64,000 nt of DNA from Aphelocoma coerulescens (taxonomy: Eukaryota > Chordata > Aves > Passeriformes > Corvidae): the NCBI RefSeq assembly GCF_041296385.1, contig NC_091014.1:68188622-68252621 (forward strand), written 5' to 3'. The notes under the pieces are model-generated. The model was not told the origin of the DNA. It did no database searches and saw nothing but the letters and a program-made list of their open reading frames with translations. Shown piece by piece: positions 10,285 through 64,000 of the stretch. Position 1 is the first letter of the stretch; every line of letters begins with the position of its first letter. The position numbers were made by a program, and so were the translations under genes.

Positions 10285-10289
10285 CCTCA

Positions 10290-10921: not shown

Positions 10922-10926
10922 CCTCA

Positions 10927-18970: not shown

Positions 18971-18977
18971 TGGAGGC

Positions 18978-19330: not shown

Positions 19331-19679
19331 ATGGACGCTCGGTTCCGTGAGGTCCCCCTTGGGTGACAACACTTCCGAATAACCACTCGAGAGCTGAGGG
19401 CTGCCGGAGCTCTGAGACCGCTCTTTGCAGCGTCCAGCGGGGAGTTAAGGGCAGCGTTGAATCGAATGATAGCAATGCAAAAGGATGCAAAGCACAGCGT
19501 GTGAACAGGAGCTTTGGAGCGCTCGGCACACAGGATATTTCAGAGGAGAAATCCCCTGGTGCAGCTGGCCCCAATAAAGAGCGGCCGCTGCTGAATGCCA
19601 CACTCCAGTGGCGTTTTAAATGTAATTTTTCTATTTTATAGGGTTTCATTTTTGCTAAGCTTTGGTAATGCCCGGGGTG

Positions 19680-19860
19680 TGATGTCATTGACCCGCTGCC
19701 TCTCGACCAATCAGATCGCTCCGCTACGTTCTGGCCCCGCCCCTCATTGTTTCCTCACAATGAGGAACCTTGGCGCTCGATTCCCATTGGCTGCCGCCCG
19801 GGGGGGCGGGGCTTAGGCTGCCTATATAAGGCGGCGGCGGTGGCGGGGCTTCACTTGCAG
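19680..19860 (+). promoter_or_regulatory. CpG-rich TATA/Inr promoter, unit 1
   Basis: In order the sequence shows a CRE-like TGATGTCA (19680-19687), CCAAT (19707-19711), a CCCCGCCCC GC box near 19735, an inverted CCAAT as ATTGG (19786-19790), a GGGGCGGGGC GC box (19803-19812), TATATAAG (19823-19830) and an Inr-like TCACTTG whose A is at 19853, 30 bp from the start of the TATA box. This is the standard layout of a strong RNA polymerase II core promoter. It points right, towards the 3' end of the minus-strand provirus. No known gene follows, so I cannot name the promoter. All elements are unchanged in the four copies. Confidence 0.8.
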
Positions 19861-20315
19861 TCCCGGCGTGGAGGCGGCAGCAGCGGAGCGGAGCGGGCGG
19901 AGAGGAGCGGAAGCCCCGAGGCCGGAGCTCTGGGAGCGGCCCGGCCCTCAGCGCCGCGGCCCTGGAGCCCCGGGCCGGGGCGGGTGGGAGGGGGTGGCTG
20001 GGAGGGAGATGGGATGGTTCGCTGCGCCGCTTCTCGCCGCCAATGCGCCTTTTCTCTCTGCAACTTTTCTCAGGTACCTGCGCCGGCCCCTCCAGATGGC
20101 AGTGGGAGCGCCAGCAACCCCGGCTCGGCAAAGGCAGGGACGGGCAACTACCGCGGCAACGAGGGACCGCACCCCAGCTCGGCAAAGGCAGGGACGGGCA
20201 ACTACCGGGGCAACGAGGGACAGCAACCCCGGCTCGGCAAAGGCAGGGCCCCAGCAGCGCCGGGGCAACGAGGGACAAAATCGGAAGAGTTCGGACACCA
20301 CCCGAAGCCCACCAA
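19853..20315 (+). ncRNA. Candidate 5' transcribed region with a splice acceptor, unit 1
   Basis: Downstream of the predicted start the sequence is GC-rich. A polypyrimidine tract followed by TTTCTCAG ends at about 20073 and looks like a splice acceptor; AAAG followed by GTAAAATC at 20317-20318 looks like a donor. Between them lie three 54-bp repeats. Two frames are open through this stretch, but the longest begins upstream of the TATA box and another uses a GTG start, so I do not call a protein. The same arrangement recurs in the other units at 31224, 42592 and 53963 onward. Unit 1 has CAACTTTTCT in the pyrimidine tract where the others have CCACTTTTCT. The exon structure is a prediction without transcript evidence. 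Confidence 0.4.
20113..20277 (+). repeat. 54-bp GC-rich tandem repeat, unit 1
   Basis: Three copies begin at 20122, 20176 and 20231, each starting (G/A)GCTCGGCAAAGGCAGGG and ending GGCAACGAGGGAC. The spacings are 54 and 55 bp, so a frame read through copies 1 and 2 shifts at copy 3. The third copy is diverged in its middle. Equivalent blocks lie at 31484-31648, 42852-43016 and 54223-54387. Confidence 0.9.
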
Positions 20316-20484
20316 AGGTAAAATCAGGTAATACCAGGTAATACCAGGTAAAACACGGTAATACCAGGTAAAACACGGTAATACCAGCTAATACCATCTA
20401 ATATTATCTAATACAGGTAAAACACGGTAAAATCAGGTAATACCAGGTAAAATCAGCTAATGCCAGGTAAAACACGGTAAAACA
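20316..20484 (+). repeat. 10-bp-period GGTAA (splice-donor-like) array, unit 1
   Basis: About seventeen 10-bp units of the types AGGTAATACC, AGGTAAAACA, CGGTAATACC and AGGTAAAATC follow one another directly. Thirteen contain GGTAA, the core of a consensus 5' splice site; a few are mutated to GCTAA or TCTAA. The array starts exactly at the predicted donor that ends the preceding region and finishes next to an AATAAA at about 20486. A 10-bp period also matches the DNA helical repeat. Function is unknown. Confidence 0.9.
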
Positions 20485-21690
20485 AAATAAAATTGGCAAA
20501 AATCACATCAAATGCCTTGAGTGATCTTTGCTCTCCCAGCGAGTGGCTTGCGATGCAAACAAATCCCAAAGCCCCCGCCTTCCCCGTGGGAGAGGAGGCC
20601 GGAGCCCCCCCGGCCTCAGCTGGGGTGAGGAGCACGCATGGCCCGGGGCTGTCTCCGTCCCTCTGCATCCTGGGGGGTCCTGTGGTGTCTTCAGGCCTCT
20701 CCTGTCGGGGAACGATCGGGACTGGGGGGATCTCTGTCCAAGTCATGGCGGGAGATACTCGGGGCAGTCACCCCAGGGCTGAGAGGGACGGAGCCCCCCT
20801 GGCCCCAGCCCCCACACGCATTTCCCAGGGCGAGAGGGACCAGGATGTGCAGTTGGCGGAAAGGCTGCTCGGCCGCGGTGCTCTCTTGCGCGCCCGGTGC
20901 TGCGGCCACGCCTCCCGCTGCCTCTCCCGGCGCCCTCTCCTCGCTGCCGGCCTCAGTGGGCGGCGCCCGCCGTGTTCCCACCGTCATCCTTGCATTATTC
21001 TCCTTTTTAAAGGAGCCTCCAAGGCTTTAGCACATTAATAGCTGTCTCATCTCCTGTGGGAGCCACTTCGATTCTAATTTTACCAGCCTGCTTCAACCTT
21101 TCCAAGCCCAGGGCAGTCCCCTCGGAGCCGTCTAGTCTGTGGCTCTTACACCATGTGCTTAAGGGTGTTAAAGCCTGTTGGTCGTATTTTATGCCTTTTT
21201 TTGTTAAAAAGCAAGTCCATACCTGTAGTACGGGGTCTTTTGGTGCTGAAACTCTGCGCCCATGCTGGCAATGTCTCCCAATTGCAAAAAAGGAAAAACA
21301 AAAAAAAAAAAAAAGAGAAGGGAAGGTCCGTCTGAGCAGCAGCTCACTGTGCTACCTTTAGTGCCGCCGAGATGGGGTGGGGGGAGCGAAGCAGTTGGAA
21401 GCGTCTTATCTGCCTCCTCTGATCTTGGGAGCAGTTTGGCTGCAAGGCGGCCGCCCGTCCTCCGAGTTGCAGGCGCGGTGCCCGGTCGCTGCAGCCGAGC
21501 CTTGGCCCACTCCCGGTGCTCTCAGCACGGCACGCAGCAGCAGGGGAGGGGTTCCACAACTCACTCGTGGTTCCGCTCCAGGGCTGCAGGTTCGGGGGGT
21601 TCTCCTCAGGCGGGCGGCGTCGGCTCCAGGAGGCCTCAGAGTGTCTCGCAGCAGGCAGTGGTGGTGGTGGTGGGGGGGGGGAGAGGCAAG
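20485..21690. other. GC-rich spacer between promoter block and provirus, unit 1
   Basis: This stretch holds the blocks shared with the left flank (20485-20845), a GC-rich segment, an A-run (21302-21314), a GGT repeat followed by a ten-base G-run (21658-21681), and several overlapping open frames that I attribute to composition. Its right end meets the provirus env end without a polypurine tract or LTR. Counterparts are 31856-33061, 43224-44429 and 54595-55803; in unit 4 the A-run is three bases longer. Confidence 0.6.
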
Positions 21691-21692
21691 GG

Positions 21693-22163
21693 TCAGCCTT
21701 CTTCGGTGGTGGTGATTTGAATACAGCGTACAGAGGGGGAGAAGGAAAGGAGTAAGTGTTGTATCATGCATTTAACCCGGCCAATACCAACGATTAGCAA
21801 TGCAATTCCAGTAGCAATTGTTATTCCAAGTTGTGCTAACCATTTTCCCCACCCTGTGAGCCCAAAATACTTTAGGATGGTAGTGACCCATGAACTATCA
21901 AATACTTCTCGCGGTTGCATTGCATGAAACAAATTTCTAGTATGATTACTTATTTCTCTCATCTTAGCTCATGCCTCCTCAGCGGAGCTAGAGGCATTAT
22001 GAATTGTAATACAACCCTCAGTTTCTGTTCTATTGAACATCCCACAAACTCCTTGTTCTTTTAACAATACCATATCTAAAGCTAATCTATTTTGCAGGGT
22101 CATTTTAGTATTTTGCTGGACTTGGGTGTATAATTCTCCAAATGCATCTTGTGTCCAATTGCT
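21693..22163 (-). pseudogene. env: env: transmembrane subunit region, unit 1
   Basis: The transmembrane subunit drives membrane fusion in an intact virus. Directly after the TGA at 22164-22166 the same frame continues with a heptad-like stretch and a segment (LQNRLALDMVLLKEQGVCG) resembling the conserved region before the cysteine motif of gammaretrovirus-like proteins. The next cysteine is ten residues further on and no CX6CC motif is seen. A second in-frame TGA lies at 21969-21971. After it, the frame from 21962 holds a hydrophobic membrane span (LGITIATGIALLIVGIG) and a short tail ending at 21693. No polypurine tract or LTR follows. Confidence 0.85.
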
Positions 22164-23540
22164 TCATATACTTAATTGCCAGGTAATATCTTCTAATACG
22201 AACTGGTGTCTTTTAAAGGTAACATAGGGAGTAAAGAAATTTTCCAGAAATAGAGATACTTTTTCTCCAGTGGTATAGTAATCTGGAATGTCAACTCCTT
22301 GAATTGCCCATTCTGCTCTTTGTGTTGCCTTTGAAGAGGGAACACTACGACAGTGACGTTCTTTAGACACTTTGGTGAAAGTAAAAATACGTCTGGGGCA
22401 AAGGGAGGGAATTCCAATTCCACACCTAAGTCCAGCATGTTGTTCTAATGACAAATGTGAATAAAATATCTCATCAGAGCATCCCCAAGCCATTCCAAGA
22501 GGGGCTATATATTTTGCAGTTTTCCACTTAGTTGCATCTGCAAAATCAAGGACGGTGATTTCTGGCTTAGTATTGATTGGAGTCCCACGGACTGGGTAGT
22601 GGGTAAAAGGAACTCCACATGGGTTGAGAAGGTATTTGTAGGAGGAGTTACAGGACTCATCTTGATTTCTCCAGCCTCTTGAGAGGTATCCCCAACAAGT
22701 ACACACATCAGTTCCTAATGTTCGAATTCTAAGTGAAAACCATGTTTCTGGAGGATCTCCTGGTCCTTCTTTGCATGTTATCACCTTTGAGCAATTGACT
22801 AGAGGACTATCTTCTTTTGTAGTCTTTTTTAGTCTCTAAATTTACCTTTAAGAACTGTTTGTACAGACCATGCCCACATTAAATGTTGTCAGTCGATTGG
22901 GGTTCTATTCGTTATGTTCGGAAGTTGACCACAGCAGGAAGGGTTAAAAACTGTGCTATATTTGCCTTCATCTACATCTGGTGTGTAGAGTGGGTCAAAC
23001 CGTGGATCCCATGGGTAAACAAGGCAGGGCTGTTTAGCATTATATTCCTCAAAGGTTATTGTCTCAGGGCTGAATTTACTTTTATCTAATTTGATGGCTG
23101 GGTGAGGGGATTCAATTTGAGATAAGATGGTTCTATTTACCTTTGGACGCCTAGTTCTACAATATTTCTGGTGCAACTGTCCTTCATGAGGTGCATCAGA
23201 AGGTGGGTCATATGTTTGGTAAAGGTTATGTACTATAGGGGTACCTCTGCACTCAACTTGGGCTCCATTTTTCTTACTTGTCCACTGTTCAGGTAGAGGC
23301 AATGGAGCTGCCACACTAGTCATATTGAGGACAAAAGATAAATTCAAGGGTACTATGTAAGATGGCAATCCTGGTTCAGCAGAATCAGGTAATGTTACAC
23401 ATACACCTTGATCAGTAGGATTCCATATTTTTGCAAACCCTTTTCCTAATTTCCAGGCAAGCTTCCTTTGATCTAGCTCTGCTAGCTAGCTCTGCTGAGC
23501 ACATGCACAAGGTAAATAAGCATAAAAATAGAGCTAACAT
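22164..23540 (-). pseudogene. env: env: signal peptide and surface subunit region, broken, unit 1
   Basis: Env forms the membrane glycoprotein of the virion. It opens at ATG 23540-23538 with a hydrophobic leader (MLALFLCLFTLCMCSA) in the same frame as the integrase tail. A 13-bp tandem duplication at about 23473-23498 then shifts the frame, which runs to a stop at 23412. Surface-type sequence resumes in a second frame (23368-22889), rich in Cys and Pro with NRT-type glycosylation sites, ending at TGA 22889-22891. A third frame (22784-22164) continues and ends at TGA 22164-22166. At least three breaks therefore lie in this part, and all are seen in all four units. Confidence 0.85.
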
Positions 23541-24539
23541 GTTACAATCCCAATTACCAGTAAACCGAAGCATAGTTCGTATCTGAGGTTTTTCATGCAC
23601 AGTCCTGAATATTTTTTTCTCCTGTTGTTCAGTTACCTGTGAAAGACAAGAAAAAGTCTGTCCAGCCCCTTTCAGGGCTAATATTAAAATGTAGGAATAA
23701 GCCAGCGAGAGCTTATTTTGTGTTCTTTGCCATAAGCATCGTTTGCTTTCCAGGTATGCATGTTCAAAGGAGTAGTTGAGTACCATGGGTACAGCTCCTG
23801 CGGTAGGCAGTTCCACCCATACAGGCTGTCCTGGGAAGCGTGCGGGTTTTTGATTACCTGTAGGTTTAGATGTTGCTGGTATCAAGGAGGGAGGCTGCAG
23901 ATAAAAAGCTGTGAGTCTGGGACATCCATTTACTCCCCATTGCTCATGTACTGTTTTCACAGCATCCCATAGTCGTTCAGTCCAATTAGAATGTTGAGGT
24001 TTCAGAAATCGCTTAAGCAGGCCATTTGTTCTCTCGACGATGCCATTTGCTTGTGGATAATGGGGTGTGTGAAATATCCACTGGATCCCTTCTTCTTTGG
24101 CCCATTTTTGGACGATGGTCGCTGTGAAATGTGCCCCGTTGTCGGATTGGATAGGTACAGGTTTTGGAAAGAAACTGAACCACATTTTAAGGGCTTCTAA
24201 TGTGTTTGCACTAGTTGCCCGAGAGAAGGCTCCTGCTTGGACTAGTCCTGACCTGACTTCTACCGACACGTGTTGTTTGCCCTCAGACTTTCCAAAAGGT
24301 CCAATATCATCTACTTGCCATGTGTCCCACAGTCCCTTTCCTGTCTCTGATATGTGAGGGGGGTTGTTCTAAAGGGTGACGCTCTGATCGGGTCCGGCAC
24401 TGCTCGCATGAAGATCTGCAGGTACGGCACATTTCCCGAGTCCCCGGCCATCCTCTGCTTGCTGCTTCCTTGTATAGGTCTTGTGCCCCGGTGTGCTGTC
24501 GCTTTAAGTGCAACCATTCTAATAATGGATCCCAGTTTT
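23541..24539 (-). pseudogene. pol: pol: integrase, frameshifted between zinc-binding and catalytic parts, unit 1
   Basis: Integrase joins viral DNA to the host chromosome. The zinc-binding start (HLKRQH, later CEQC) lies at the end of the RT frame, which stops at 24307. The catalytic core lies in another frame: WQVDDIGP, then SDNGAHF (Asp at 24141-24143), then GIVERTNG (Glu at 24033-24035). The second Asp and the Glu are 35 residues apart, the canonical DD35E spacing, so the catalytic triad survives. The frame changes at or near a G6 run at 24358-24363 (C6 in the coding strand). The core frame continues without a stop into the env signal peptide, ending at 23412. Confidence 0.9.
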
Positions 24540-26319
24540 CTCTTGGAGGTTTTCTACTTAGTGGGGCTAATCTGGCCCTCTCATCTACTTTGTGATTCCA
24601 GTGGCTAGTTGGGGTTTCCTTTTCTTGATGAGAGGCTACCCAGCCAACTAAAAAATTCCCCTTTTTTGCTACAGCAAGAATTTCTTGCCATTTTTCCTTT
24701 TGCCAAGCAGGGACCCTGTTTACTTCCCAGTCCTTTTTGTCCCAGAAGGGGAGCCATTCAGTACACCCTTTGAACACAGCAAAAGAATCAGTGTAAACAT
24801 ATACAGAGTCTGAGGTTTCAGATGCATGGTTAAATACACTCCAGACTGCTGCCAGTTCTCCCACTTGTGCACTACCTTCCCCTTCTGTTACAATTTGCTT
24901 GCCTGTATTTATTTGTAAGGCTACAGCACCACATTTCCAAACCTTACCTTCTCGCTTTGCTGATGCATCCGTAAACCACACATTCTGCAATCGTTCTGAG
25001 TACGGGGGAGCAACTTGGATCATAGAAGGTGAAAAGTCAGTGGTGCTATTTAGGGTTACCTCATCTTGTAGAGGAAGATTTTTGCGAGCTCCTTCTGTTA
25101 CTTGAAAAATGGTGCAATAATGTTCCATTTGAGCATACCGTTTGCAAACAGAGGCACGTTGGGCCACCCCGTCAGGAGGTGGGATTCCTGCCAAAACTGA
25201 CTTGATGACTTGAAAAGGTTCCCTTAAAATCAGGGGTTGTTTGTGGGTAGTTTTCTCTGCTTCCTGAAAAGCAGTGCTGACCACGAATAAACTTTTTTCC
25301 CAGGTAGAATATCGTTTTTCTGCATCTTTAAAACTGCGTGAGTAAAAGCCTATGGGTCTGGTAGGACCATCGGGTCCTTTCTGCCATAAATGTATAGACA
25401 GTCCAGAGCTTGCAAATCGCCATTCCATGTGTACTGGATCAGTGGGATGTATAGGACCTAGGGATTGGTATGTGTTAGCTTCAAAAATTAGGAGTTGTAG
25501 GGCCTCATCGTGCAAGGGAGTCCAATCCCACTTTGCTTTTTTTCCTAGCAAATCATACAGGGGCCTTGCAATTATTGAAAAGTCAGGAATGTGTTTCCTC
25601 CAAAAAATTAGCAGGCCTAAAGCATGCTGCAGGTCTTTTTTAGTCTCTGGGGTTTCAATTTGGTCTAGGTGGCTGAGGGTGTCTGGGGCAATACACACCA
25701 TTCCTCCTTTCCACCAGATTCCCAAGAATTTTACTTCTAGGGAAGGGAGTTGTACTTTTTCAGGAGGAATACGTAAGCCCGGGGATTCTAGATGTTTAAT
25801 GATGTTTGTTTGTGTTGTTTGTACAGGTGTAATCTCATCTCCTGCCACCAAAATGCCATCAATGTATTGGTATACTCTTACTCCTGGTGCAGGAGGAATG
25901 AGTGACAATTCTTGTGCTAGTGCATGATGTGCTAGAGTGGGTGAGTGTTTGAATCCTTGTGGGAGGCGAGTGAAAGTATATTGCTGGCCCTCCCCCGTGA
26001 AAGCAAAACGCTCCTGATCTTGTTCCTGCGAGGGGACCATAAAAAACATGTCCTTGACATCAATAGTGGCCATAATTTGATGAGCTTGTTCTTGTCTAGT
26101 AGCTCTCAGCTCAGCAATGTTTGGGACTGCAGCAGTGAGAGGCCCTGTATTTTGAGTTAAGCCGCCGATAGTCTCCTGTCAGTCTCCAGTTGCCATTAGG
26201 CTTGCGGACTGGCCACACAGGAGCATTGTAAGGGGAATGTGTTGCAATCACTATTCCTTTTTCTTTCAAATGTGCAATAATTGGTGTGATTCCTTCTCTG
26301 GCTCCTAAAGGCAAGGGGT
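24540..26319 (-). pseudogene. pol: pol: reverse transcriptase and RNase H, unit 1
   Basis: RT copies the RNA genome into DNA and RNase H removes the RNA strand. The main frame (26073-24307, 588 codons) begins at ATIDVKDMFFMV, with the first catalytic aspartate region, and FTRLPQGFKHSP follows. The catalytic YxDD box reads YIDG at 25866-25855: the second aspartate is replaced by glycine (GGC), which should abolish polymerase activity. RNase H follows, with FTDAS (Asp codon 24967-24969), GELAAV, YTDSF and VDERARL, so its four acidic positions look present. A T4 run at 26150-26153 puts RT out of frame with the protease. Sequence character is class III-like. Confidence 0.92.
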
Positions 26320-26706
26320 AAGGTTTGACATTGGTTACTAGGGAGGGGGGAAGAGCAGGAGCAGAACTTAACAAACACAAATGGGAGGTTTCCTGCCCCA
26401 AAGTCCCTATTTTTCCTTCTTCATTGGTCCAAGGCCTTCCCTTTAGGAGGTCCAGACCCAGTGAATTTGTAGGAAATTCACCTGTAATCATTAGGGTGTC
26501 AACTGCTTTCTCTTCTGCCGGTAACCAGCGTCTTACCTTTGCTGTCATCTGGGCTTGGCTATTCTCAAAAACATCTGTGACACGTATACTCTTACGTGAG
26601 GGAGTGATTCCACGTGAGGAGGCATCTTCAATTTTAAGGGCAGACACCTGAGCACCAGTATCTACTAAAAAAGTTACCGGGGCTTTGTGGGGACCAGTAG
26701 GACAGG
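26320..26706 (-). pseudogene. pro: pol: protease region, unit 1
   Basis: The retroviral aspartic protease cuts the Gag and Gag-Pol precursors and works as a dimer. The active-site motif LVDTGAQVSAL is visible, with the D-T-G-A codons at 26662-26651. The protease frame lies in the -1 register relative to the last gag frame, which stops just before it at 26710, so in a live virus it would have needed frameshifting. The frame continues into the N-terminal part of RT (SPYNAPVWPVRKPNGNW, then DYRRLNS). In this unit it breaks at the T4 run at 26150-26153. The active-site motif is intact here. Confidence 0.8.
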
Positions 26707-26709
26707 TTA

Positions 26710-28435
26710 TTAACGGGTCTCCTCTGGAATTGTTAGAAAGGCGCCTGATGTGAATCCACCCTTCGCCCCCTGGCTTACCTTCTGCAAAGATAAGGGTTTT
26801 CTGTCACCTTCCCTTTCTTGTGGTTCCTCCAGGGGAGGGGCTGTAGCAGGGACAGCTTTTAATGGTTCCTCTTTTGCTGGCCACTCTTGGATGAATAGTT
26901 CTAATTTATTAGTGGGCTGGCCATCCATTAGGGTCCTTGGGACTCCCTTTTGTAAGCCCGCAATCCACAGGGCATTTCTTTTCTCCTTGCGTTCTTCCCC
27001 TGTATTTGTTTGTCTACCCAGCCCAGGGGAGAACCTTACCTTTTGGAGTTTTGCTGGGGACAGGGTTTTGCACTCTGTGCGCCGAATTGATCTAGAATCA
27101 GTTGTATTTGAAGGAATTGGGCCATATTTTCTCCCGTAATTAATTAATTCTTGTGCCACCTTCCCCCCCAGGTCCAAACCTTCCCTTTTGCCCGCTTAAG
27201 ACTGAGGGAAATAGCTGCTGCCTCCAAGGTGGCTACAGCTCTTTCTGCAATTGGGAGACTTTCTATTTGTCCTTTTAGCTGCATGCCTATGGGTTTGACA
27301 GCTTCAGGGAGGCCTCTGATAAGAGGTATCATTCTCTCAGGATCCACAGGCACCATCACTGGAGATTCACCTCGTGGTGTTAATTTCCTATCATGCATCA
27401 TTTGTAAACGAGCCGCTTTCTGTACACTTTCTACAGTCTGATTGACATTCCTTACTATAGCCAGGGGATCTCCTCTTTCTGAAGGACTGAGTCTGCCAGC
27501 CCAATCAGCAGCTCTCTGGGGAGGGACCAAGGAGCACGGTTATCTCCTGTGGTAAGGAAGACTCCTGCCCCTCCAGTACCCTTCTGCCTCTTTTTCTGAG
27601 AACAGAATTTGGTCAGCCCGTGTGAGAGAGAGTCTCCAAACACATTCAGTTTCAGATTCTTTGGGACTTTGGCTATACCCTTCCTTTAGTTTGGCCAATT
27701 CAGTAGCTGTAGATGGGATTTCTTTTGTGGTTATGTCAGGTGTGTCGTCGTCTGAAGCCTCATGGGTGTATTCTGTTTTAATGAAGGGACGGAGCGAGGC
27801 TGAGGGCTTTTCTGAGTGATTACGCAAGGATTCTAAGTCCGAGAGGGGGTACGCTTCTTTAGATAGTTCCAGCTCTGACTCCTTTTTTCCCTCATTTGCT
27901 GATCTTGCAAACAGCTCCTCTCGGAGCACACAGACAGTAGCCTTTTCATTCCTTATCTCTTCCTGGAGGAGGTGGGTGTTAGCTCCAGCTGAAATTGCAA
28001 TGCTTTAACCAAATGCTGTAATGAAGCAGTAACTTCCGTATCAGCTTTCTGCTGGTGCTCTCTGTGTCCTACTGCAGCTAGCACAGCAGCAGCTAAGACA
28101 GAACATACCACTGGTTGCGCTTTACCTTTTTTGAGTCTCGCTCCTGTGCGCAGGACAGAGACTCGATCAACGAGTGCTTGGATATTATACCAATAGTTTT
28201 GTGCCCAGTCCGTCCCTGGAGGAGATGGCCTGGCACCAAATTCATCCAACAAAGTAAACAAAGCTTGTGTATGATGTCCCATGTTACTTACAAATGTCGG
28301 AGTGATCATTCCTAGAGGATGCCCAGCGTAAAGTAAATTTACAAAAGTCTCACCCCTGCACTCTGGGAAGGTTCCTCTTCTGCCAAACCAAAGAAAGTTA
28401 CAAACACTGGAGTAGTCTCTCTTGAGGGACACCCC
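26710..28435 (-). pseudogene. gag: gag, broken into several frames, unit 1
   Basis: Gag supplies the structural precursor of the capsid. Four consecutive minus-strand frames (28432-27953, 27929-27540, 27530-27144, 27177-26710) read as one gene with frame changes between them. Some of these frames have no ATG at their left end; the first is entered at GTG with a stop just upstream. The third frame has a capsid-like look (GDPLAIVRNVNQTVESV, then PVDPERMIPLIRGLPEAVKP). The last has KGVPRTLMDGQPTNKLELF and ends at tandem TAA codons. I see no CCHC zinc knuckle. Assignment rests on position 5' of protease and on weak resemblance to class III gag. Confidence 0.7.
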
Positions 28436-28613
28436 TTACAAAATGGTTTCTGAGGTCCTACTCCTTACACCTCGAGAGCACCTAGTGTTTACCAAAGTTA
28501 CAAGTCTCAAAATTACTTTCCAAACTCCCAGGTCTTTTACCTACAGGAGTGCCAATTTCCCAGACCCTGGGCCTCGGGAGCACCGTTTTAGCTCAGGTGC
28601 ATGTGCAAACACA

Positions 28614-28637
28614 CAAGCAAACAAACAAACAAACAAA
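28614..28637. repeat. CAAA microsatellite in the gag leader, unit 1
   Basis: A short run of four to five CAAA units on the plus strand lies in the proviral leader. The same run occurs in the other units (near 39982, 51353 and 62728) with no length change seen. Confidence 0.8.
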
Positions 28638-28773
28638 AGAGTAAGACAGAGTAAGAAAGGTAGAGAGGTGTTAGGAAATGTAGAAAGGTACGTTGTTTTA
28701 TTTTCCTAAAATGATCCAATCATAAGAATTAGCAATTCATGCATTTTTTGGAAACAACACTCTCATTTTACGG

Positions 28774-28793
28774 GGATCCTGCCGACTATGCCA
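28774..28793 (-). promoter_or_regulatory. Retroviral primer binding site, tRNA-Ser type, unit 1
   Basis: On the minus strand the site reads TGGCATAGTCGGCAGGAT followed by CC. It is complementary to the 3' end of vertebrate tRNA-Ser (acceptor stem plus CCA and part of the T arm), apart from a base that looks like CpG decay (TGGCA for TGGCG) and a change at the end. It lies six bases inside a terminus ending GTAACA, as expected for the end of a 5' LTR. About 340 bp of leader separate it from the first gag-like frame. The same site is at 40142-40161, 51513-51532 and 62888-62907. Confidence 0.8.
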
Positions 28794-28799
28794 ATAAAG

Positions 28800-29336
28800 T
28801 GTTACGATCCGGTTCAGACCCAGAAAGGCAAAGCAGGCGAAGTCTCTGAGCATAAACCAGAAAGAACTTCGAAGGTTCAAAATATTGCCAGATATGAGAT
28901 TAAAACCAAACGAGATTAAATGTCGATGCCAAAAAATTGATGTATTTTATTTGACAGTAAAAGTAGGGCCCAGTTTGGGGCCAATCACCCTTGCAGTGCC
29001 TAAAGGGGCTCCAGCAGAGCTGGAGGGGGGCTGGGAGCAGCCGGAAGCGGGAGCAGCCAGAGCTGGGAGCACCTGCATCTTGGCCAAGGCAGCTGCCGCC
29101 AGGTTTGGTGGTGCCTGAGCAGGGCGGGGACGATGCCAGGGACATCCCGCAGTGACGTCTTCTCTTTTCCGCTGGGCGTGCGCTCGGTCCCAAAGCGCAC
29201 GCCCATTCTGATCTCAGTCTCACTCCATGTTTAGACACGCTCACAGTCCTGGATTTCATCCCATGCCAGTGGCAGACCCGTGCAGCCCCAGAGCCAATAC
29301 CAAGGCCAGGCTGAAGGCAAACGCCACATTTAGCCT
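28800..29336 (-). other. Possible 5' LTR remnant and GC-rich sequence, unit 1
   Basis: A 5' LTR should lie directly right of the primer binding site. On the minus strand the segment ends CGGATCGTAACA, and an AATAAA lies at about 28945-28950, so R and U5 may be present. Further right the sequence is GC-rich with a CRE-like GACGTCA near 29153, and I cannot define a TG start or a TATA box for U3. No matching LTR exists at the other end of the provirus, so the assignment is uncertain. A single base at 29077 (G here and in unit 4, A in units 2 and 3) changes an open frame length. Confidence 0.4.
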
Positions 29337-29434
29337 TCACGCCAATGGTAGCTGTAATGTAAAACCCAGCCCTAACGCCGAGGCCTCTCCTAATTCCAGC
29401 CCCTTGCTAAATGCTCAGCCCTAAACCAAATGCA
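29337..29434. repeat. Degenerate GCCCTAA repeat, left part, unit 1
   Basis: Motifs such as AGCCCTAACG, AGCCCTAAACC and CCTAATTCCAGCCCC recur every 10-20 bp. The core CCCTAA equals the vertebrate telomere repeat, but spacing is irregular. The block resumes at 30027 after the inserted LTR. Counterparts: 40705-40802, 52076-52173, 63451-63548. Confidence 0.6.
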
Positions 29435-29438
29435 ACGG

Positions 29439-30012: not shown

Positions 30013-30026
30013 ACGGTGAGCTCGAA

Positions 30027-30778: not shown

Positions 30779-31050
30779 AGCTCTGAGACCGCTCTTTGCA
30801 GCGTCCAGCGGGGAGTTAAGGGCAGCGTTGAATCGAATGATAGCAATGCAAAAGGATGCAAAGCACAGCGTGTGAACAGGAGCTTTGGAGCGCTCGGCAC
30901 ACAGGATATTTCAGAGGAGAAATCCCCTGGTGCAGCTGGCCCCAATAAAGAGCGGCCGCTGCTGAATGCCACACTCCAGTGGCGTTTTAAATGTAATTTT
31001 TCTATTTTATAGGGTTTCATTTTTGCTAAGCTTTGGTAATGCCCGGGGTG

Positions 31051-38074: not shown

Positions 38075-38077
38075 TTA

Positions 38078-49445: not shown

Positions 49446-49448
49446 TTA

Positions 49449-53789: not shown

Positions 53790-53970
53790 TGATGTCATTG
53801 ACCCGCTGCCTCTCGACCAATCAGATCGCTCCGCTACGTTCTGGCCCCGCCCCTCATTGTTTCCTCACAATGAGGAACCTTGGCGCTCGATTCCCATTGG
53901 CTGCCGCCCGGGGGGGCGGGGCTTAGGCTGCCTATATAAGGCGGCGGCGGTGGCGGGGCTTCACTTGCAG
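53790..53970 (+). promoter_or_regulatory. TATA/Inr promoter, unit 4
   Basis: Identical by eye to the unit 1 promoter. TATATAAG lies at 53933-53940 and the Inr A is at 53963. Confidence 0.8.
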
Positions 53971-54425
53971 TCCCGGCGTGGAGGCGGCAGCAGCGGAGCG
54001 GAGCGGGCGGAGAGGAGCGGAAGCCCCGAGGCCGGAGCTCTGGGAGCGGCCCGGCCCTCAGCGCCGCGGCCCTGGAGCCCCAGGCCGGGGCGGGTGGGAG
54101 GGGGTGGCTGGGAGGGAGATGGGATGGTTCGCTGCGCCGCTTCTCGCCGCCAATGCGCCTTTTCTCTCTGCCACTTTTCTCAGGTACCTGCGCCGGCCCC
54201 TCCAGATGGCAGTGGGAGCGCCAGCAACCCCGGCTCGGCAAAGGCAGGGACGGGCAACTACCGCGGCAACGAGGGACCGCACCCCAGCTCGGCAAAGGCA
54301 GGGACGGGCAACTACCGGGGCAACGAGGGACAGCAACCCCGGCTCGGCAAAGGCAGGGCCCCAGCAGCGCCGGGGCAACGAGGGACAAAATCGGAAGAGT
54401 TCGGACACCACCCGAAGCCCACCAA

Positions 54426-54594
54426 AGGTAAAATCAGGTAATACCAGGTAATACCAGGTAAAACACGGTAATACCAGGTAAAACACGGTAATACCAGCTA
54501 ATACCATCTAATATTATCTAATACAGGTAAAACACGGTAAAATCAGGTAATACCAGGTAAAATCAGCTAATGCCAGGTAAAACACGGTAAAACA
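54426..54594 (+). repeat. 10-bp GGTAA array, unit 4
   Basis: Same as the unit 1 array with no difference seen. Confidence 0.9.
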
Positions 54595-55805
54595 AAATAA
54601 AATTGGCAAAAATCACATCAAATGCCTTGAGTGATCTTTGCTCTCCCAGCGAGTGGCTTGCGATGCAAACAAATCCCAAAGCCCCCGCCTTCCCCGTGGG
54701 AGAGGAGGCCGGAGCCCCCCCGGCCTCAGCTGGGGTGAGGAGCACGCATGGCCCGGGGCTGTCTCCGTCCCTCTGCATCCTGGGGGGTCCTGTGGTGTCT
54801 TCAGGCCTCTCCTGTCGGGGAACGATCGGGACTGGGGGGATCTCTGTCCAAGTCATGGCGGGAGATACTCGGGGCAGTCACCCCAGGGCTGAGAGGGACG
54901 GAGCCCCCCTGGCCCCAGCCCCCACACGCATTTCCCAGGGCGAGAGGGACCAGGATGTGCAGTTGGCGGAAAGGCTGCTCGGCCGCGGTGCTCTCTTGCG
55001 CGCCCGGTGCTGCGGCCACGCCTCCCGCTGCCTCTCCCGGCGCCCTCTCCTCGCTGCCGGCCTCAGTGGGCGGCGCCCGCCGTGTTCCCACCGTCATCCT
55101 TGCATTATTCTCCTTTTTAAAGGAGCCTCCAAGGCTTTAGCACATTAATAGCTGTCTCATCTCCTGTGGGAGCCACTTCGATTCTAATTTTACCAGCCTG
55201 CTTCAACCTTTCCAAGCCCAGGGCAGTCCCCTCGGAGCCGTCTAGTCTGTGGCTCTTACACCATGTGCTTAAGGGTGTTAAAGCCTGTTGGTCGTATTTT
55301 ATGCCTTTTTTTGTTAAAAAGCAAGTCCATACCTGTAGTACGGGGTCTTTTGGTGCTGAAACTCTGCGCCCATGCTGGCAATGTCTCCCAATTACAAAAA
55401 AGGAAAAAGAAAAAAAAAAAAAAAAAAGAGAAGGGAAGGTCCGTCTGAGCAGCAGCTCACTGTGCTACCTTTAGTGCCGCCGAGATGGGGTGGGGGGAGC
55501 GAAGCAGTTGGAAGCGTCTTATCTGCCTCCTCTGATCTTGGGAGCAGTTTGGCTGCAAGGCGGCCGCCCGTCCTCCGAGTTGCAGGCGCGGTGCCCGGTC
55601 GCTGCAGCCGAGCCTTGGCCCACTCCCGGTGCTCTCAGCACGGCACGCAGCAGCAGGGGAGGGGTTCCACAACTCACTCGTGGTTCCGCTCCAGGGCTGC
55701 AGGTTCGGGGGGTTCTCCTCAGGCGGGCGGCGTCGGCTCCAGGAGGCCTCAGAGTGTCTCGCAGCAGGCAGTGGTGGTGGTGGTGGGGGGGGGGAGAGGC
55801 AAGGG

Positions 55806-57653
55806 TCAGCCTTCTTCGGTGGTGGTGATTTGAATACAGCGTACAGAGGGGGAGAAGGAAAGGAGTAAGTGTTGTATCATGCATTTAACCCGGCCAATAC
55901 CAACGATTAGCAATGCAATTCCAGTAGCAATTGTTATTCCAAGTTGTGCTAACCATTTTCCCCACCCTGTGAGCCCAAAATACTTTAGGATGGTAGTGAC
56001 CCATGAACTATCAAATACTTCTCGCGGTTGCATTGCATGAAACAAATTTCTAGTATGATTACTTATTTCTCTCATCTTAGCTCATGCCTCCTCAGCGGAG
56101 CTAGAGGCATTATGAATTGTAATACAACCCTCAGTTTCTGTTCTATTGAACATCCCACAAACTCCTTGTTCTTTTAACAATACCATATCTAAAGCTAATC
56201 TATTTTGCAGGGTCATTTTAGTATTTTGCTGGACTTGGGTGTATAATTCTCCAAATGCATCTTGTGTCCAATTGCTTCATATACTTAATTGCCAGGTAAT
56301 ATCTTCTAATACGAACTGGTGTCTTTTAAAGGTAACATAGGGAGTAAAGAAATTTTCCAGAAATAGAGATACTTTTTCTCCAGTGGTATAGTAATCTGGA
56401 ATGTCAACTCCTTGAATTGCCCATTCTGCTCTTTGTGTTGCCTTTGAAGAGGGAACACTACGACAGTGACGTTCTTTAGACACTTTGGTGAAAGTAAAAA
56501 TACGTCTGGGGCAAAGGGAGGGAATTCCAATTCCACACCTAAGTCCAGCATGTTGTTCTAATGACAAATGTGAATAAAATATCTCATCAGAGCATCCCCA
56601 AGCCATTCCAAGAGGGGCTATATATTTTGCAGTTTTCCACTTAGTTGCATCTGCAAAATCAAGGACGGTGATTTCTGGCTTAGTATTGATTGGAGTCCCA
56701 CGGACTGGGTAGTGGGTAAAAGGAACTCCACATGGGTTGAGAAGGTATTTGTAGGAGGAGTTACAGGACTCATCTTGATTTCTCCAGCCTCTTGAGAGGT
56801 ATCCCCAACAAGTACACACATCAGTTCCTAATGTTCGAATTCTAAGTGAAAACCATGTTTCTGGAGGATCTCCTGGTCCTTCTTTGCATGTTATCACCTT
56901 TGAGCAATTGACTAGAGGACTATCTTCTTTTGTAGTCTTTTTTAGTCTCTAAATTTACCTTTAAGAACTGTTTGTACAGACCATGCCCACATTAAATGTT
57001 GTCAGTCGATTGGGGTTCTATTCGTTATGTTCGGAAGTTGACCACAGCAGGAAGGGTTAAAAACTGTGCTATATTTGCCTTCATCTACATCTGGTGTGTA
57101 GAGTGGGTCAAACCGTGGATCCCATGGGTAAACAAGGCAGGGCTGTTTAGCATTATATTCCTCAAAGGTTATTGTCTCAGGGCTGAATTTACTTTTATCT
57201 AATTTGATGGCTGGGTGAGGGGATTCAATTTGAGATAAGATGGTTCTATTTACCTTTGGACGCCTAGTTCTACAATATTTCTGGTGCAACTGTCCTTCAT
57301 GAGGTGCATCAGAAGGTGGGTCATATGTTTGGTAAAGGTTATGTACTATAGGGGTACCTCTGCACTCAACTTGGGCTCCATTTTTCTTACTTGTCCACTG
57401 TTCAGGTAGAGGCAATGGAGCTGCCACACTAGTCATATTGAGGACAAAAGATAAATTCAAGGGTACTATGTAAGATGGCAATCCTGGTTCAGCAGAATCA
57501 GGTAATGTTACACATACACCTTGATCAGTAGGATTCCATATTTTTGCAAACCCTTTTCCTAATTTCCAGGCAAGCTTCCTTTGATCTAGCTCTGCTAGCT
57601 AGCTCTGCTGAGCACATGCACAAGGTAAATAAGCATAAAAATAGAGCTAACAT
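55806..57653 (-). pseudogene. env: env, broken, unit 4
   Basis: Same segments and translations as unit 1: leader at 57653, surface frames 57481-57002 and 56897-56277, tail 56075-55806. All shared breaks are present. Confidence 0.85.
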
Positions 57654-60600
57654 GTTACAATCCCAATTACCAGTAAACCGAAGCATAGTTCGTATCTGAG
57701 GTTTTTCATGCACAGTCCTGAATATTTTTTTCTCCTGTTGTTCAGTTACCTGTGAAAGACAAGAAAAAGTCTGTCCAGCCCCTTTCAGGGCTAATATTAA
57801 AATGTAGGAATAAGCCAGCGAGAGCTTATTTTGTGTTCTTTGCCATAAGCATCGTTTGCTTTCCAGGTATGCATGTTCAAAGGAGTAGTTGAGTACCATG
57901 GGTACAGCTCCTGCGGTAGGCAGTTCCACCCATACAGGCTGTCCTGGGAAGCGTGCGGGTTTTTGATTACCTGTAGGTTTAGATGTTGCTGGTATCAAGG
58001 AGGGAGGCTGCAGATAAAAAGCTGTGAGTCTGGGACATCCATTTACTCCCCATTGCTCATGTACTGTTTTCACAGCATCCCATAGTCGTTCAGTCCAATT
58101 AGAATGTTGAGGTTTCAGAAATCGCTTAAGCAGGCCATTTGTTCTCTCGACGATGCCATTTGCTTGTGGATAATGGGGTGTGTGAAATATCCACTGGATC
58201 CCTTCTTCTTTGGCCCATTTTTGGACGATGGTCGCTGTGAAATGTGCCCCGTTGTCGGATTGGATAGGTACAGGTTTTGGAAAGAAACTGAACCACATTT
58301 TAAGGGCTTCTAATGTGTTTGCACTAGTTGCCCGAGAGAAGGCTCCTGCTTGGACTAGTCCTGACCTGACTTCTACCGACACGTGTTGTTTGCCCTCAGA
58401 CTTTCCAAAAGGTCCAATATCATCTACTTGCCATGTGTCCCACAGTCCCTTTCCTGTCTCTGATATGTGAGGGGGGTTGTTCTAAAGGGTGACGCTCTGA
58501 TCGGGTCCGGCACTGCTCGCATGAAGATCTGCAGGTACGGCACATTTCCCGAGTCCCCGGCCATCCTCTGCTTGCTGCTTCCTTGTATAGGTCTTGTGCC
58601 CCGGTGTGCTGTCGCTTTAAGTGCAACCATTCTAATAATGGATCCCAGTTTTCTCTTGGAGGTTTTCTACTTAGTGGGGCTAATCTGGCCCTCTCATCTA
58701 CTTTGTGATTCCAGTGGCTAGTTGGGGTTTCCTTTTCTTGATGAGAGGCTACCCAGCCAACTAAAAAATTCCCCTTTTTTGCTACAGCAAGAATTTCTTG
58801 CCATTTTTCCTTTTGCCAAGCAGGGACCCTGTTTACTTCCCAGTCCTTTTTGTCCCAGAAGGGGAGCCATTCAGTACACCCTTTGAACACAGCAAAAGAA
58901 TCAGTGTAAACATATACAGAGTCTGAGGTTTCAGATGCATGGTTAAATACACTCCAGACTGCTGCCAGTTCTCCCACTTGTGCACTACCTTCCCCTTCTG
59001 TTACAATTTGCTTGCCTGTATTTATTTGTAAGGCTACAGCACCACATTTCCAAACCTTACCTTCTCGCTTTGCTGATGCATCCGTAAACCACACATTCTG
59101 CAATCGTTCTGAGTACGGGGGAGCAACTTGGGTCATAGAAGGTGAAAAGTCAGTGGTGCTATTTAGGGTTACCTCATCTTGTAGAGGAAGATTTTTGCGA
59201 GCTCCTTCTGTTACTTGAAAAATGGTGCAATAATGTTCCATTTGAGCATACCGTTTGCAAACAGAGGCACGTTGGGCCACCCCGTCAGGGGGTGGGATTC
59301 CTGCCAAAACTGACTTGATGACTTGAAAAGGTTCCCTTAAAATCAGGGGTTGTTTGTGGGTAGTTTTCTCTGCTTCCTGAAAAGCAGTGCTGACCACGAA
59401 TAAACTTTTTTCCCAGGTAGAATATCGTTTTTCTGCATCTTTAAAACTGCGTGAGTAAAAGCCTATGGGTCTGGTAGGACCATCGGGTCCTTTCTGCCAT
59501 AAATGTGTAGACAGTCCAGAGCTTGCAAATCGCCATTCCATGTGTACTGGATCAGTGGGATGTATAGGACCTAGGGATTGGTATGTGTTAGCTTCAAAAA
59601 TTAGGAGTTGTAGGGCCTCATCGTGCAAGGGAGTCCAATCCCACTTTGCTTTTTTTCCTAGCAAATCATACAGGGGCCTTGCAATTATTGAAAAGTCAGG
59701 AATGTGTTTCCTCCAAAAAATTAGCAGGCCTAAAGCATGCTGCAGGTCTTTTTTAGTCTCTGGGGTTTCAATTTGGTCTAGGTGGCTGAGGGTGTCTGGG
59801 GCAATACACACCATTCCTCCTTTCCACCAGATTCCCAAGAATTTTACTTCTAGGGAAGGGAGTTGTACTTTTTCAGGAGGAATACGTAAGCCCGGGGATT
59901 CTAGATGTTTAATGATGTTTGTTTGTGTTGTTTGTACAGGTGTAATCTCATCTCCTGCCACCAAAATGCCATCAATGTATTGGTATACTCTTACTCCTGG
60001 TGCAGGAGGAATGAGTGACAATTCTTGTGCTAGTGCATGATGTGCTAGAGTGGGTGAGTGTTTGAATCCTTGTGGGAGGCGAGTGAAAGTATATTGCTGG
60101 CCCTCCCCCGTGAAAGCAAAACGCTCCTGATCTTGTTCCTGCGAGGGGACCATAAAAAACATGTCCTTGACATCAATAGTGGCCATAATTTGATGAGCTT
60201 GTTCTTGTCTAGTAGCTCTCAGCTCAGCAATGTTTGGGACTGCGGCAGTGAGAGGCCCTGTATTTTGAGTTAAGCCGCCGATAGTCTCCTGTCAGTCTCC
60301 AGTTGCCATTAGGCTTGCGGACTGGCCACACAGGAGCATTGTAAGGGGAATGTGTTGCAATCACTATTCCTTTTTCTTTCAAATGTGCAATAATTGGTGT
60401 GATTCCTTCTCTGGCTCCTAAAGGCAAGGGGTAAGGTTTGACATTGGTTACTAGGGAGGGGGGAAGAGCAGGAGCAGAACTTAACAAACACAAATGGGAG
60501 GTTTCCTGCCCCAAAGTCCCTATTTTTCCTTCTTCATTGGTCCAAGGCCTTCCCTTTAGGAGGTCCAGACCCAGTGAATTTGTAGGAAATTCACCTGTAA

Positions 60601-60820
60601 TCATTAGGGTGTCAACTGCTTTCTCTTCTGCCGGTAACCAGCGTCTTACCTTTGCTGTCATCTGGGCTTGGCTATTCTCAAAAACATCTGTGACACGTAT
60701 ACTCTTACGTGAGGGAGTGATTCCACGTGAGGAGGCATCTTCAATTTTAAGGGCAGACACCTGAGCACCAGTATCTACTAAAAAAAGTTACCGGGGCTTT
60801 GTGGGGACCAGTAGGACAGG
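57654..60820 (-). pseudogene. pol: pol: protease to integrase, unit 4
   Basis: The lesions of unit 1 are shared: a T4 run at 60263-60266, YIDG with its Gly codon at 59968-59970, and the integrase frameshift near 58471-58476. A private extra A at 60780-60786 (seven instead of six) shifts the frame immediately before the protease D-T-G-A motif, so this copy also lacks a continuous protease frame. Confidence 0.92.
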
Positions 60821-60823
60821 TTA

Positions 60824-62549
60824 TTAACGGGTCTCCTCTGGAATTGTTAGAAAGGCGCCTGATGTGAATCCACCCTTCGCCCCCTGGCTTACCTTCTGCA
60901 AAGATAAGGGTTTTCTGTCACCTTCCCTTTCTTGTGGTTCCTCCAGGGGAGGGGCTGTAGCAGGGACAGCTTTTAATGGTTCCTCTTTTGCTGGCCACTC
61001 TTGGATGAATAGTTCTAATTTATTAGTGGGCTGGCCATCCATTAGGGTCCTTGGGACTCCCTTTTGTAAGCCCGCAATCCACAGGGCATTTCTTTTCTCC
61101 TTGCGTTCTTCCCCTGTATTTGTTTGTCTACCCAGCCCAGGGGAGAACCTTACCTTTTGGAGTTTTGCTGGGGACAGGGTTTTGCACTCTGTGCGCCGAA
61201 TTGATCTAGAATCAGTTGTATTTGAAGGAATTGGGCCATATTTTCTCCCGTAATTAATTAATTCTTGTGCCACCTTCCCCCCCAGGTCCAAACCTTCCCT
61301 TTTGCCCGCTTAAGACTGAGGGAAATAGCTGCTGCCTCCAAGGTGGCTACAGCTCTTTCTGCAATTGGGAGACTTTCTATTTGTCCTTTTAGCTGCATGC
61401 CTATGGGTTTGACAGCTTCAGGGAGGCCTCTGATAAGAGGTATCATTCTCTCAGGATCCACAGGCACCATCACTGGAGATTCACCTCGTGGTGTTAATTT
61501 CCTATCATGCATCATTTGTAAACGAGCCGCTTTCTGTACACTTTCTACAGTCTGATTGACATTCCTTACTATAGCCAGGGGATCTCCTCTTTCTGAAGGA
61601 CTGAGTCTGCCAGCCCAATCAGCAGCTCTCTGGGGAGGGACCAAGGAGCACGGTTATCTCCTGTGGTAAGGAAGACTCCTGCCCCTCCAGTACCCTTCTG
61701 CCTCTTTTTCTGAGAACAGAATTTGGTCAGCCCGTGTGAGAGAGAGTCTCCAAACACATTCAGTTTCAGATTCTTTGGGACTTTGGCTATACCCTTCCTT
61801 TAGTTTGGCCAATTCAGTAGCTGTAGATGGGATTTCTTTTGTGGTTATGTCAGGTGTGTCGTCGTCTGAAGCCTCATGGGTGTATTCTGTTTTAATGAAG
61901 GGACGGAGCGAGGCTGAGGGCTTTTCTGAGTGATTACGCAAGGATTCTAAGTCCGAGAGGGGGTACGCTTCTTTAGATAGTTCCAGCTCTGACTCCTTTT
62001 TTCCCTCATTTGCTGATCTTGCAAACAGCTCCTCTCGGAGCACACAGACAGTAGCCTTTTCATTCCTTATCTCTTCCTGGAGGAGGTGGGTGTTAGCTCC
62101 AGCTGAAATTGCAATGCTTTAACCAAATGCTGTAATGAAGCAGTAACTTCCGTATCAGCTTTCTGCTGGTGCTCTCTGTGTCCTACTGCAGCTAGCACAG
62201 CAGCAGCTAAGACAGAACATACCACTGGTTGCGCTTTACCTTTTTTGAGTCTCGCTCCTGTGCGCAGGACAGAGACTCGATCAACGAGTGCTTGGATATT
62301 ATACCAATAGTTTTGTGCCCAGTCCGTCCCTGGAGGAGATGGCCTGGCACCAAATTCATCCAACAAAGTAAACAAAGCTTGTGTATGATGTCCCATGTTA
62401 CTTACAAATGTCGGAGTGATCATTCCTAGAGGATGCCCAGCGTAAAGTAAATTTACAAAAGTCTCACCCCTGCACTCTGGGAAGGTTCCTCTTCTGCCAA
62501 ACCAAAGAAAGTTACAAACACTGGAGTAGTCTCTCTTGAGGGACACCCC
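60824..62549 (-). pseudogene. gag: gag, broken, unit 4
   Basis: Same frame segments as in unit 1 (62546-62067, 62043-61654, 61644-61258, 61291-60824) with identical translations. Confidence 0.7.
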
Positions 62550-63552
62550 TTACAAAATGGTTTCTGAGGTCCTACTCCTTACACCTCGAGAGCACCTAGT
62601 GTTTACCAAAGTTACAAGTCTCAAAATTACTTTCCAAACTCCCAGGTCTTTTACCTACAGGAGTGCCAATTTCCCAGACCCTGGGCCTCGGGAGCACCGT
62701 TTTAGCTCAGGTGCATGTGCAAACACACAAGCAAACAAACAAACAAACAAAAGAGTAAGACAGAGTAAGAAAGGTAGAGAGGTGTTAGGAAATGTAGAAA
62801 GGTACGTTGTTTTATTTTCCTAAAATGATCCAATCATAAGAATTAGCAATTCATGCATTTTTTGGAAACAACACTCTCATTTTACGGGGATCCTGCCGAC
62901 TATGCCAATAAAGTGTTACGATCCGGTTCAGACCCAGAAAGGCAAAGCAGGCGAAGTCTCTGAGCATAAACCAGAAAGAACTTCGAAGGTTCAAAATATT
63001 GCCAGATATGAGATTAAAACCAAACGAGATTAAATGTCGATGCCAAAAAATTGATGTATTTTATTTGACAGTAAAAGTAGGGCCCAGTTTGGGGCCAATC
63101 ACCCTTGCAGTGCCTAAAGGGGCTCCAGCAGAGCTGGAGGGGGGCTGGGAGCAGCCGGAAGCGGGAGCAGCCAGAGCTGGGAGCACCTGCATCTTGGCCA
63201 AGGCAGCTGCCGCCAGGTTTGGTGGTGCCTGAGCAGGGCGGGGACGATGCCAGGGACATCCCGCAGTGACGTCTTCTCTTTTCCGCTGGGCGTGCGCTCG
63301 GTCCCAAAGCGCACGCCCATTCTGATCTCAGTCTCACTCCATGTTTAGACACGCTCACAGTCCTGGATTTCATCCCATGCCAGTGGCAGACCCGTGCAGC
63401 CCCAGAGCCAATACCAAGGCCAGGCTGAAGGCAAACGCCACATTTAGCCTTCACGCCAATGGTAGCTGTAATGTAAAACCCAGCCCTAACGCCGAGGCCT
63501 CTCCTAATTCCAGCCCCTTGCTAAATGCTCAGCCCTAAACCAAATGCAACGG

Positions 63553-64000
63553 TGTAATAAATGAATTGGTTTCAGGGTGTTGATTTTTACTGTTTGGAGG
63601 AGATAGAAAAGAGGGGAGTTGATAGTTGGATACATGGGCATGTTAACGGAGGATATTGCGAGACTGTCTGGGTGTAATATCGGAGTGTGAGCACTAGGTG
63701 GAGACGCAATTGGGGATGTGATGACGTGATGGACTAGAAAATGACCTCATGCAGGTGATGTCAACATCTTGGACCGCTTAGCCAATCATTCGACACCCTC
63801 GGGAAATGATTGGACAAAAATGCATCTTGATAAAGACCAATAGAACCCCTGGAAGCGAGCCAATCAGAAGAAGAATCCAAAATCCACCAATTGTGAACGG
63901 ACAGAGGGCATAAGAACGGACCTGGGACTTTATCCGGGGAGCTCCTGCGGAACTTGGGGTCCAAGGTTGCACCCAGTGGGTCACACTGTCCTTTTTGTGT
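63553..64000 (+). mobile_element. Solo LTR, unit 4 (cut by window end)
   Basis: Same element, beginning TGTAATAAATG after ACGG at 63549-63552. The window ends within the U3/R part, before the AATAAA. Confidence 0.85.

Follow-up and report, generated by a model that had tools for sequence, protein, structure and literature searches.

An 11.4-kb tandem unit with a promoter-like mini-gene and a truncated provirus in Aphelocoma coerulescens

Macrosatellites, defined with examples in the excerpted text of PMC3599962, are the closest described class to the sequence treated here. The nearest in logic is the human RNU2 macrosatellite, whose near-identical 6.1-kb units each hold a short non-coding gene, that of the U2 small nuclear RNA (snRNA), together with a long terminal repeat (LTR), evolve in concert and give rise to assembly gaps (PMC3795722, excerpt). 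In chicken, HINT1W is a tandem gene-bearing unit of 5,648 bp present 52 times, and Kronos_I is a centromeric tandem array of three full-length endogenous retroviruses, or ERVs (both in excerpts of PMC9974502). The present locus is a stretch of 64,000 nucleotides from the bird Aphelocoma coerulescens, hereafter the window, which corresponds to positions 68188622-68252621 of contig NC_091014.1 (here C2). From position 19408 to its last base, the window consists of 3.9 head-to-tail units of about 11.4 kb, each combining a small promoter-like mini-gene with an antisense, 3'-truncated provirus. Kilobase-scale head-to-tail units, arrays of hundreds of kilobases and high identity between units are all found here, as in macrosatellites.

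The explanation that we favor, and hold to be probable, is that of a macrosatellite in which an ERV-bearing 11.4-kb unit with one founder has given rise to arrays that lie on at least two contigs of chromosome scale, C2 and C39, as well as on smaller ones, and is homogenized in concert. In this unit, the mini-gene would specify a short non-coding RNA, and the provirus would be a passenger.

Units of the array and their parts

Self-comparison of the window returned a single dominant family of offsets, 11,368-11,375 bp and multiples thereof, spanning 19408-64000. The units start at 19408, 30779, 42147 and 53518, and were delimited by self-comparison and alignment with MAFFT as follows:

19408..30778, + strand: unit 1, 11371 bp
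30779..42146, + strand: unit 2, 11368 bp
42147..53517, + strand: unit 3, 11371 bp
53518..64000, + strand: unit 4, of which the first 10483 bp are included; the window stops here, at the edge of a 100-N scaffold gap

The original prediction, made from the letters of the window, was a tandem head-to-tail array with a period of about 11.37 kb, and both the offsets and the unit lengths (11371/11368/11371 bp) bear it out. Its count of fewer than 20 differences proved essentially right, as the MAFFT alignment of the four units has 20 variable columns, with 4-9 substitutions per pair over ~10.48 kb. In the stretch common to all four, units 1-4 have 4, 1, 3 and 2 private single-nucleotide variants, respectively. 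Two further sites split the units 2:2 and are mutually incompatible, which hints at exchange between window units. Pairwise distances of 3.8e-4 to 8.6e-4 would translate into ~95-215 kyr at an assumed rate of 0.002 substitutions per site per Myr, or into 12-27 kyr at 0.0158, a rate quoted from an excerpt of PMC7341801. Given the spread of dates across the two rates, only "recent" is claimed, and very recent amplification or homogenization, as first proposed, is supported.

The window closes inside a longer array. The 100-N gap lies directly after its last base (64000, or C2:68252621), and beyond the gap the array continues to a diverged partial copy that ends at C2:68454313, so that the C2 array amounts to ~246 kb including the gap. 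Its left edge is 19408, where flank and unit are continuous in the manner of a related array on contig C3. The parts of unit 1, with the neighboring flank block, are the following:

18958..19407, + strand: left flank block F, ancestral upstream neighbor of the mini-gene; runs unbroken into 19408-20323 in the C3 stretches L015, L016 and L021 (88.1-88.5% identity)
19660..19845, + strand: promoter-like block of the mini-gene, with a cAMP response element (CRE)-like site, CCAAT boxes, GC boxes and a TATA box; putatively active
19846..20505, + strand: GC-rich, putatively transcribed stretch; contains repeats of 54 bp and an array of 10-bp AGGTAA-type repeats, and AATAAA is at 20486
21693..28799, - strand: provirus body, antisense and 3'-truncated, running from env-like to gag-like pieces whose frames are broken; Pfam recognizes protease, reverse transcriptase/RNase H and integrase
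28800..29245, - strand: 5' LTR of the provirus, with boundaries suggested by TG...CA ends and an adjoining primer-binding-site-like stretch
29250..30330, + strand: degenerate CCCTAA-like sequence flanking the solo LTR, strong on the right side and weak on the left
29435..30016, + strand: solo LTR (29439-30012) with an exact 4-bp ACGG target-site duplication on both sides
30558..30778, + strand: GC-rich unit tail T, also in the C3 array (89.6-91.0% identical); its end is the founder junction

The provirus is dead. Pfam recognizes three of its ten pieces, namely protease, reverse transcriptase/RNase H and integrase, while the four pieces in the gag position and the three in the env position have no retroviral Pfam match; the labels "gag-like" and "env-like" follow position and our own judgment. 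The stretch beside the 5' LTR resembles a tRNA-Ser primer-binding site. No second LTR of the provirus was found in the unit, hence no LTR pair with target-site duplication that would mark a full provirus, and with a single LTR found the element is taken to be 3'-truncated. Each unit has, on the minus strand, nine frames that are 120 codons or longer, and the breaks fall mostly at the same places in all four; unit 2 is without one shared break but has another, and units 3 and 4 have one extra break each. The catalytic motif of the reverse transcriptase is altered in all four. The pol piece is related to bird ERVs: its nine best matches have identities of 62-70% across 81% or more of its length, and every named match ranked above the 28th (P0028) is from a bird, so that the ERV relatives by themselves point to a bird host; among viral contigs no relative was found.

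The solo LTR has its 5' end in four of four units and its 3' end in the three that reach that far. It is set in degenerate telomere-like sequence, as judged with simple base shuffles: to its right CCCTAA occurs 4 times against 0.17 expected (0/1000 shuffles reach that number), and to its left 2 times against 0.12 expected (6/1000 shuffles), a weaker excess. TTAGGG does not occur in this stretch. The combination of promoter, antisense provirus, solo LTR and telomere-like motifs, which had been proposed for the unit, is therefore supported, all four being found in it.

Spread across the genome and homogenization

The genome survey covered one assembly of 1.33 Gb in 660 contigs. An exact 36-mer from the unit start has 196 matches genome-wide (124 forward, 72 reverse), and the reversed control has none. 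Among the 100 of these 196 matches that were listed, 9 are on C2, 50 on C39 and 41 on C54, the last spanning 8.8-479 kb. Array sequence also fills the stretches read at both ends of C84 (463 kb) and C172 (199 kb), contigs that hold most of the best 40 of 286 candidate unit matches. The unit spacing is alike on all five contigs, and dividing spans by the period gives ~207 units if C54 is array throughout; our estimate is roughly 200 units and ~2.3 Mb of 11.4-kb array. The provirus is also part of the arrays on C39 and C54, since one-kb samples of the pol region (two from C39, one from C54) are 99.2-99.6% identical to unit 1.

C39 has a particular layout: among the matches listed, 16 are reverse at 50.63-50.81 Mb and 34 forward at 52.91-53.30 Mb, that is, two arrays of opposite orientation ~2.1 Mb apart on one chromosome-scale contig. 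As a guess from their size and order, C2 and C39 may be 1A- and Z-like.

How similar are units from different places? Of 20 fetched units, 19 entered this comparison, each with 2.15 kb of non-viral sequence; the one left out, from C2, has a variant that breaks its anchor motif. Mean pairwise differences are 3.2 within C2, 3.4 within C84 and 4.4 within C172, and 3.4-4.2 between them, so that these three contigs behave as one pool. Three units from C39 and C54 are distinct from this pool by 6-9 differences of ~796 positions, and from one another by 1-4 of 850. Put otherwise, C2-type and C39-type units are ~1% apart, and units of C2, C84 and C172 ~0.2%, which is the pattern that concerted evolution predicts. 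The single C54 unit read is nearest to C39, and C84 and C172 match the C2 pool; these three contigs may be either absent portions of the C2 and C39 arrays or the other haplotype. The 54-bp repeats vary as well, with one more in both C39 units and two more in the C54 unit. The terminal C2 copy has one repeat fewer, and shows 14-18 differences against the 19 units.

These units share a junction. The exact T|G junction of tail and mini-gene is present at 3 of 3 window junctions and, in the fetched (overlapping) loci, at 34 of 36 array-unit starts, the two exceptions being C84 loci. C39 and C54 units carry it too, and only at the left array edge does the flank, instead of the tail, abut the mini-gene. 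The sampled units stem from one founder junction.

Could the array be an assembly artifact, with one or a few units falsely multiplied? A 100-N gap does follow the window, and small contigs hold much of the array sequence. Set against this are the 196 exact unit starts, the distinct subfamilies on different chromosome-scale contigs, the private variants in each window unit, the diverged terminal C2 copy and a left edge that lies in ancestral context. False assembly duplication, a danger the original prediction itself had named, is therefore very improbable.

The sister array on C3 and the mini-gene

The left flank leads to a second array. At C3:90.82-90.98 Mb (L010-L016, L020-L021), there is a tandem array with a period of 6,824-6,826 bp, in which the flank block occurs in at least 24 places (counted in the best 40 of 912 candidates). 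C3 shares the mini-gene, the block upstream of it and the unit tail with the 11.4-kb unit, at 88-91% identity by BLAST block, and the ERV body has no match in the C3 stretches read. The mini-gene is therefore the core common to both arrays. A unit built around a dead retrovirus, as first proposed, is not supported, because an ERV-free sister array carries the same mini-gene at ~90% identity; to judge from these sequences, the 3'-truncated ERV, like the solo LTR, has the look of a passenger. An LTR fragment of 87% identity is present in C3, in the opposite relative orientation. Five C3 loci have 5-48 pairwise differences over ~3.4 kb, and hence the C3 array is less homogenized.

The C3 array also bears on the setting of the mini-gene. 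In L015, L016 and L021, the equivalent of 18958-20323 is continuous, and after it come the poly(A) and B blocks; the older setting of the mini-gene is thus represented by the window's left flank. A second, truncated copy in these stretches is preceded by tail T. Flank 18961-19211 is, in addition, 85% identical to block B of the unit (20589-20840). By parsimony, the provirus body, the solo LTR and the telomere-like block would have been added in the 11.4-kb lineage, with their loss from C3 as a possible alternative. As for the founder junction, the C3 tail runs on into AGTGG, the mini-gene starts with AGCTC, and the unit joins the two at the shared AG. Such a 2-bp overlap resembles end joining rather than recombination between long repeats.

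From these elements a history may be proposed. An ancestral C3-like locus would have had a short promoter of the TATA/CCAAT type, along with a GC-rich transcribed stretch and a poly(A) signal. Beside this mini-gene, an ERV and a second LTR element would then have inserted, the first losing its 3' end and the second becoming a solo LTR. The stretch from 19408 to the tail would next have been duplicated in tandem by end joining with the 2-bp overlap, although the order of insertion and duplication is itself conjectural. Finally, unequal exchange or conversion may have expanded and homogenized the arrays within chromosomes, transfer between chromosomes being rarer.

What would the mini-gene do? 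Its promoter elements in unit 1 are a CRE-like site at 19680, CCAAT at 19707, an inverted CCAAT at 19786, GC boxes and TATATAA at 19823, and the TATA landmark is also in units 2-4. The observed/expected (o/e) CpG ratio is 0.80 over 19660-20330, against 0.32 in the ERV. About three 54-bp repeats make up part of the GC-rich body in a window unit, and the 10-bp repeat array (20316-20470 and its copies in units 2-4) has nine AGGTAA motifs, against a mean of 0.09 and a maximum of 3 in 1000 base shuffles. These 5'-splice-site-like sequences stand just before the poly(A) signal and are absent in C3; presumably they could act as a U1-binding array that influences use of the poly(A) site. Viral contigs gave no match to this array.

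Coding potential was probed in several ways. Eight C3 loci with nine copies, some loci overlapping, were compared: the 81-codon open reading frame (ORF) of the C2 mini-gene is reduced to 13 codons in 8 of the 9 copies, and in the ninth (L014) no start of it could be located. None of the nine has the candidate splice acceptor, while the TATA and poly(A) landmarks are kept in all nine. Protein searches with the mini-gene, one per frame, gave 0 matches at E 0.001 (1454 candidates) and 0 at E 0.01 (4136 candidates). Pfam found nothing significant, and no protein kinase domain, in 10 non-viral frames of unit 1, which are part of all its frames. A protein-coding gene was consequently rejected. So was a known RNA gene: Rfam at gathering threshold has no match in the window, so there is no U2 snRNA gene, and no tRNA gene was found. 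With the ORF not conserved and the protein searches and Pfam empty, we infer a short, probably non-coding RNA polymerase II transcript, or the relic of one. As a working hypothesis, each unit most likely yields a short non-coding RNA from the CpG-rich promoter, ending at the AATAAA at 20486, with the provirus as a passenger.

Whether this core is maintained or merely carried bears on a strong competitor, to which we give somewhat less than even chances: a selfish or neutral satellite, in which a functionless unit with a relic promoter and an ERV was amplified and homogenized by chance. The absence of a conserved ORF, the loss of the splice acceptor in C3, and the lack of any RNA family or of a Pfam match in the ten frames all suit this view. 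The promoter speaks against it, being CpG-rich, found in both array types and, apart from the poly(A) block, the best conserved block between C2 and C3. Identity is 94.1% for the promoter block (11/185 differ), 92.9% for the block upstream (18/252), 87.0% for the transcribed part (61/471) and 95.2% for the poly(A) block (3/63), compared with 88.4% for flank block F and 84.9% for block B. The promoter is better conserved than the transcribed part (Fisher p = 0.008, with boundaries picked after the alignment was seen).

Another explanation starts from orientation, as promoter and provirus are oppositely oriented in every window unit. If the promoter read through the antisense provirus, the unit could be a factory of PIWI-interacting RNAs (piRNAs), with small RNAs against the ERV family favoring high copy number. 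A truncated chicken provirus is a source of avian leukosis virus (ALV) piRNAs, according to an excerpt of PMC5383398. The AGGTAA motifs arrayed before the poly(A) signal, as possible U1 sites, fit as well. However, promoter and provirus are separated by the conserved AATAAA at 20486, more plus-strand signals occur inside the provirus, and no A-MYB-like motif was found in 19601-20100 (judged with a simple motif; such clusters can also be driven by other promoters). Moreover, the ERV-free C3 array shows the core amplified without the ERV body. We thus consider the piRNA factory unlikely. Equally doubtful is its broader form, in which a promoter-bearing non-coding RNA gene was made into homogenized arrays at least twice, on several chromosomes, with the ERV version a copy-number-dependent germline source of antisense, piRNA-like RNA against its own retrovirus family.

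The macrosatellite with a non-coding mini-gene remains the preferred explanation, and some points weigh against it. Transcription of the mini-gene is predicted from its sequence. Constraint on the promoter itself is weak, because the boundaries were post hoc and the block upstream is nearly as conserved, and any selected function is putative. As evidence of exchange the 2:2 sites are weak, as there are only two in the window and one is a CpG. The unit totals assume that C54 is wholly array, and copy totals rest on assembled sequence, in which some small contigs may be the other haplotype.

The left flank offers some observations of its own. Two diverged direct repeats (13115-13521 and 15243-15988, 91-94% identical) resemble an LTR pair, the second split by ~330 bp, and a ~0.65-kb direct repeat joins 155-822 and 10289-10921 at 72% identity. 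A degenerate, GC-rich, minisatellite-like sequence at 18300-18960 is akin to sequence in C3 (80%) and on the right side of the C2 array (85%). Positions 1-13000 are strongly CpG-depleted (o/e 0.12 against the 0.32 of the ERV body), as though the ERV had come later than the DNA around it.

Comparison with known systems

Taken together, these arrays form a naturally occurring pair of macrosatellites, related to each other and found within a single genome, 11.4 kb with a provirus and 6.8 kb without a provirus body, around a common core. They make the birth of a macrosatellite readable step by step: ancestral context, ERV insertion, an end-joining-like junction, spread between chromosomes and chromosome-wise homogenization. 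They mark ~2.3 Mb of a bird genome where assembly breaks, and would allow one to test directly whether an antisense provirus in an array is put to use or just carried along. In the literature searched, at the level of excerpts, no description of this 11.4-kb unit turned up, nor did a promoter core common to ERV-bearing and ERV-free arrays with the former on at least two chromosome-scale contigs.

In some primates, the RNU2 unit includes a provirus. The unit described here is unlike RNU2 in having no U2 or other Rfam gene in the window, which sets aside an RNU2-type snRNA array, and in having a provirus body, a distribution over several chromosomes and a gene of no recognized family. HINT1W is protein-coding and W-linked, and neither it nor Kronos_I joins, as this unit does, a non-coding mini-gene and a truncated ERV. 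Zebra finch PAK3L is an ampliconic bird array that breaks assemblies, as happens here, but its units are 59-268 kb and hold kinase genes (PMC13060935, excerpt); kinase gene arrays of the PAK3L/PIM1L type were rejected, as the ten non-viral frames scanned in unit 1 have no kinase domain. The crow satellite crowSat1, with a 14-kb unit, likewise exceeds 10 kb (a mention in PMC6115840), a likeness of unit size. At the chicken ALVE6 locus, small RNAs may come from a truncated provirus (PMC5383398, excerpt); here the provirus has lost its 3' end. Among all of these, the unit is best filed as a macrosatellite, and what is new in it is the embedded provirus and the spread over several chromosomes.

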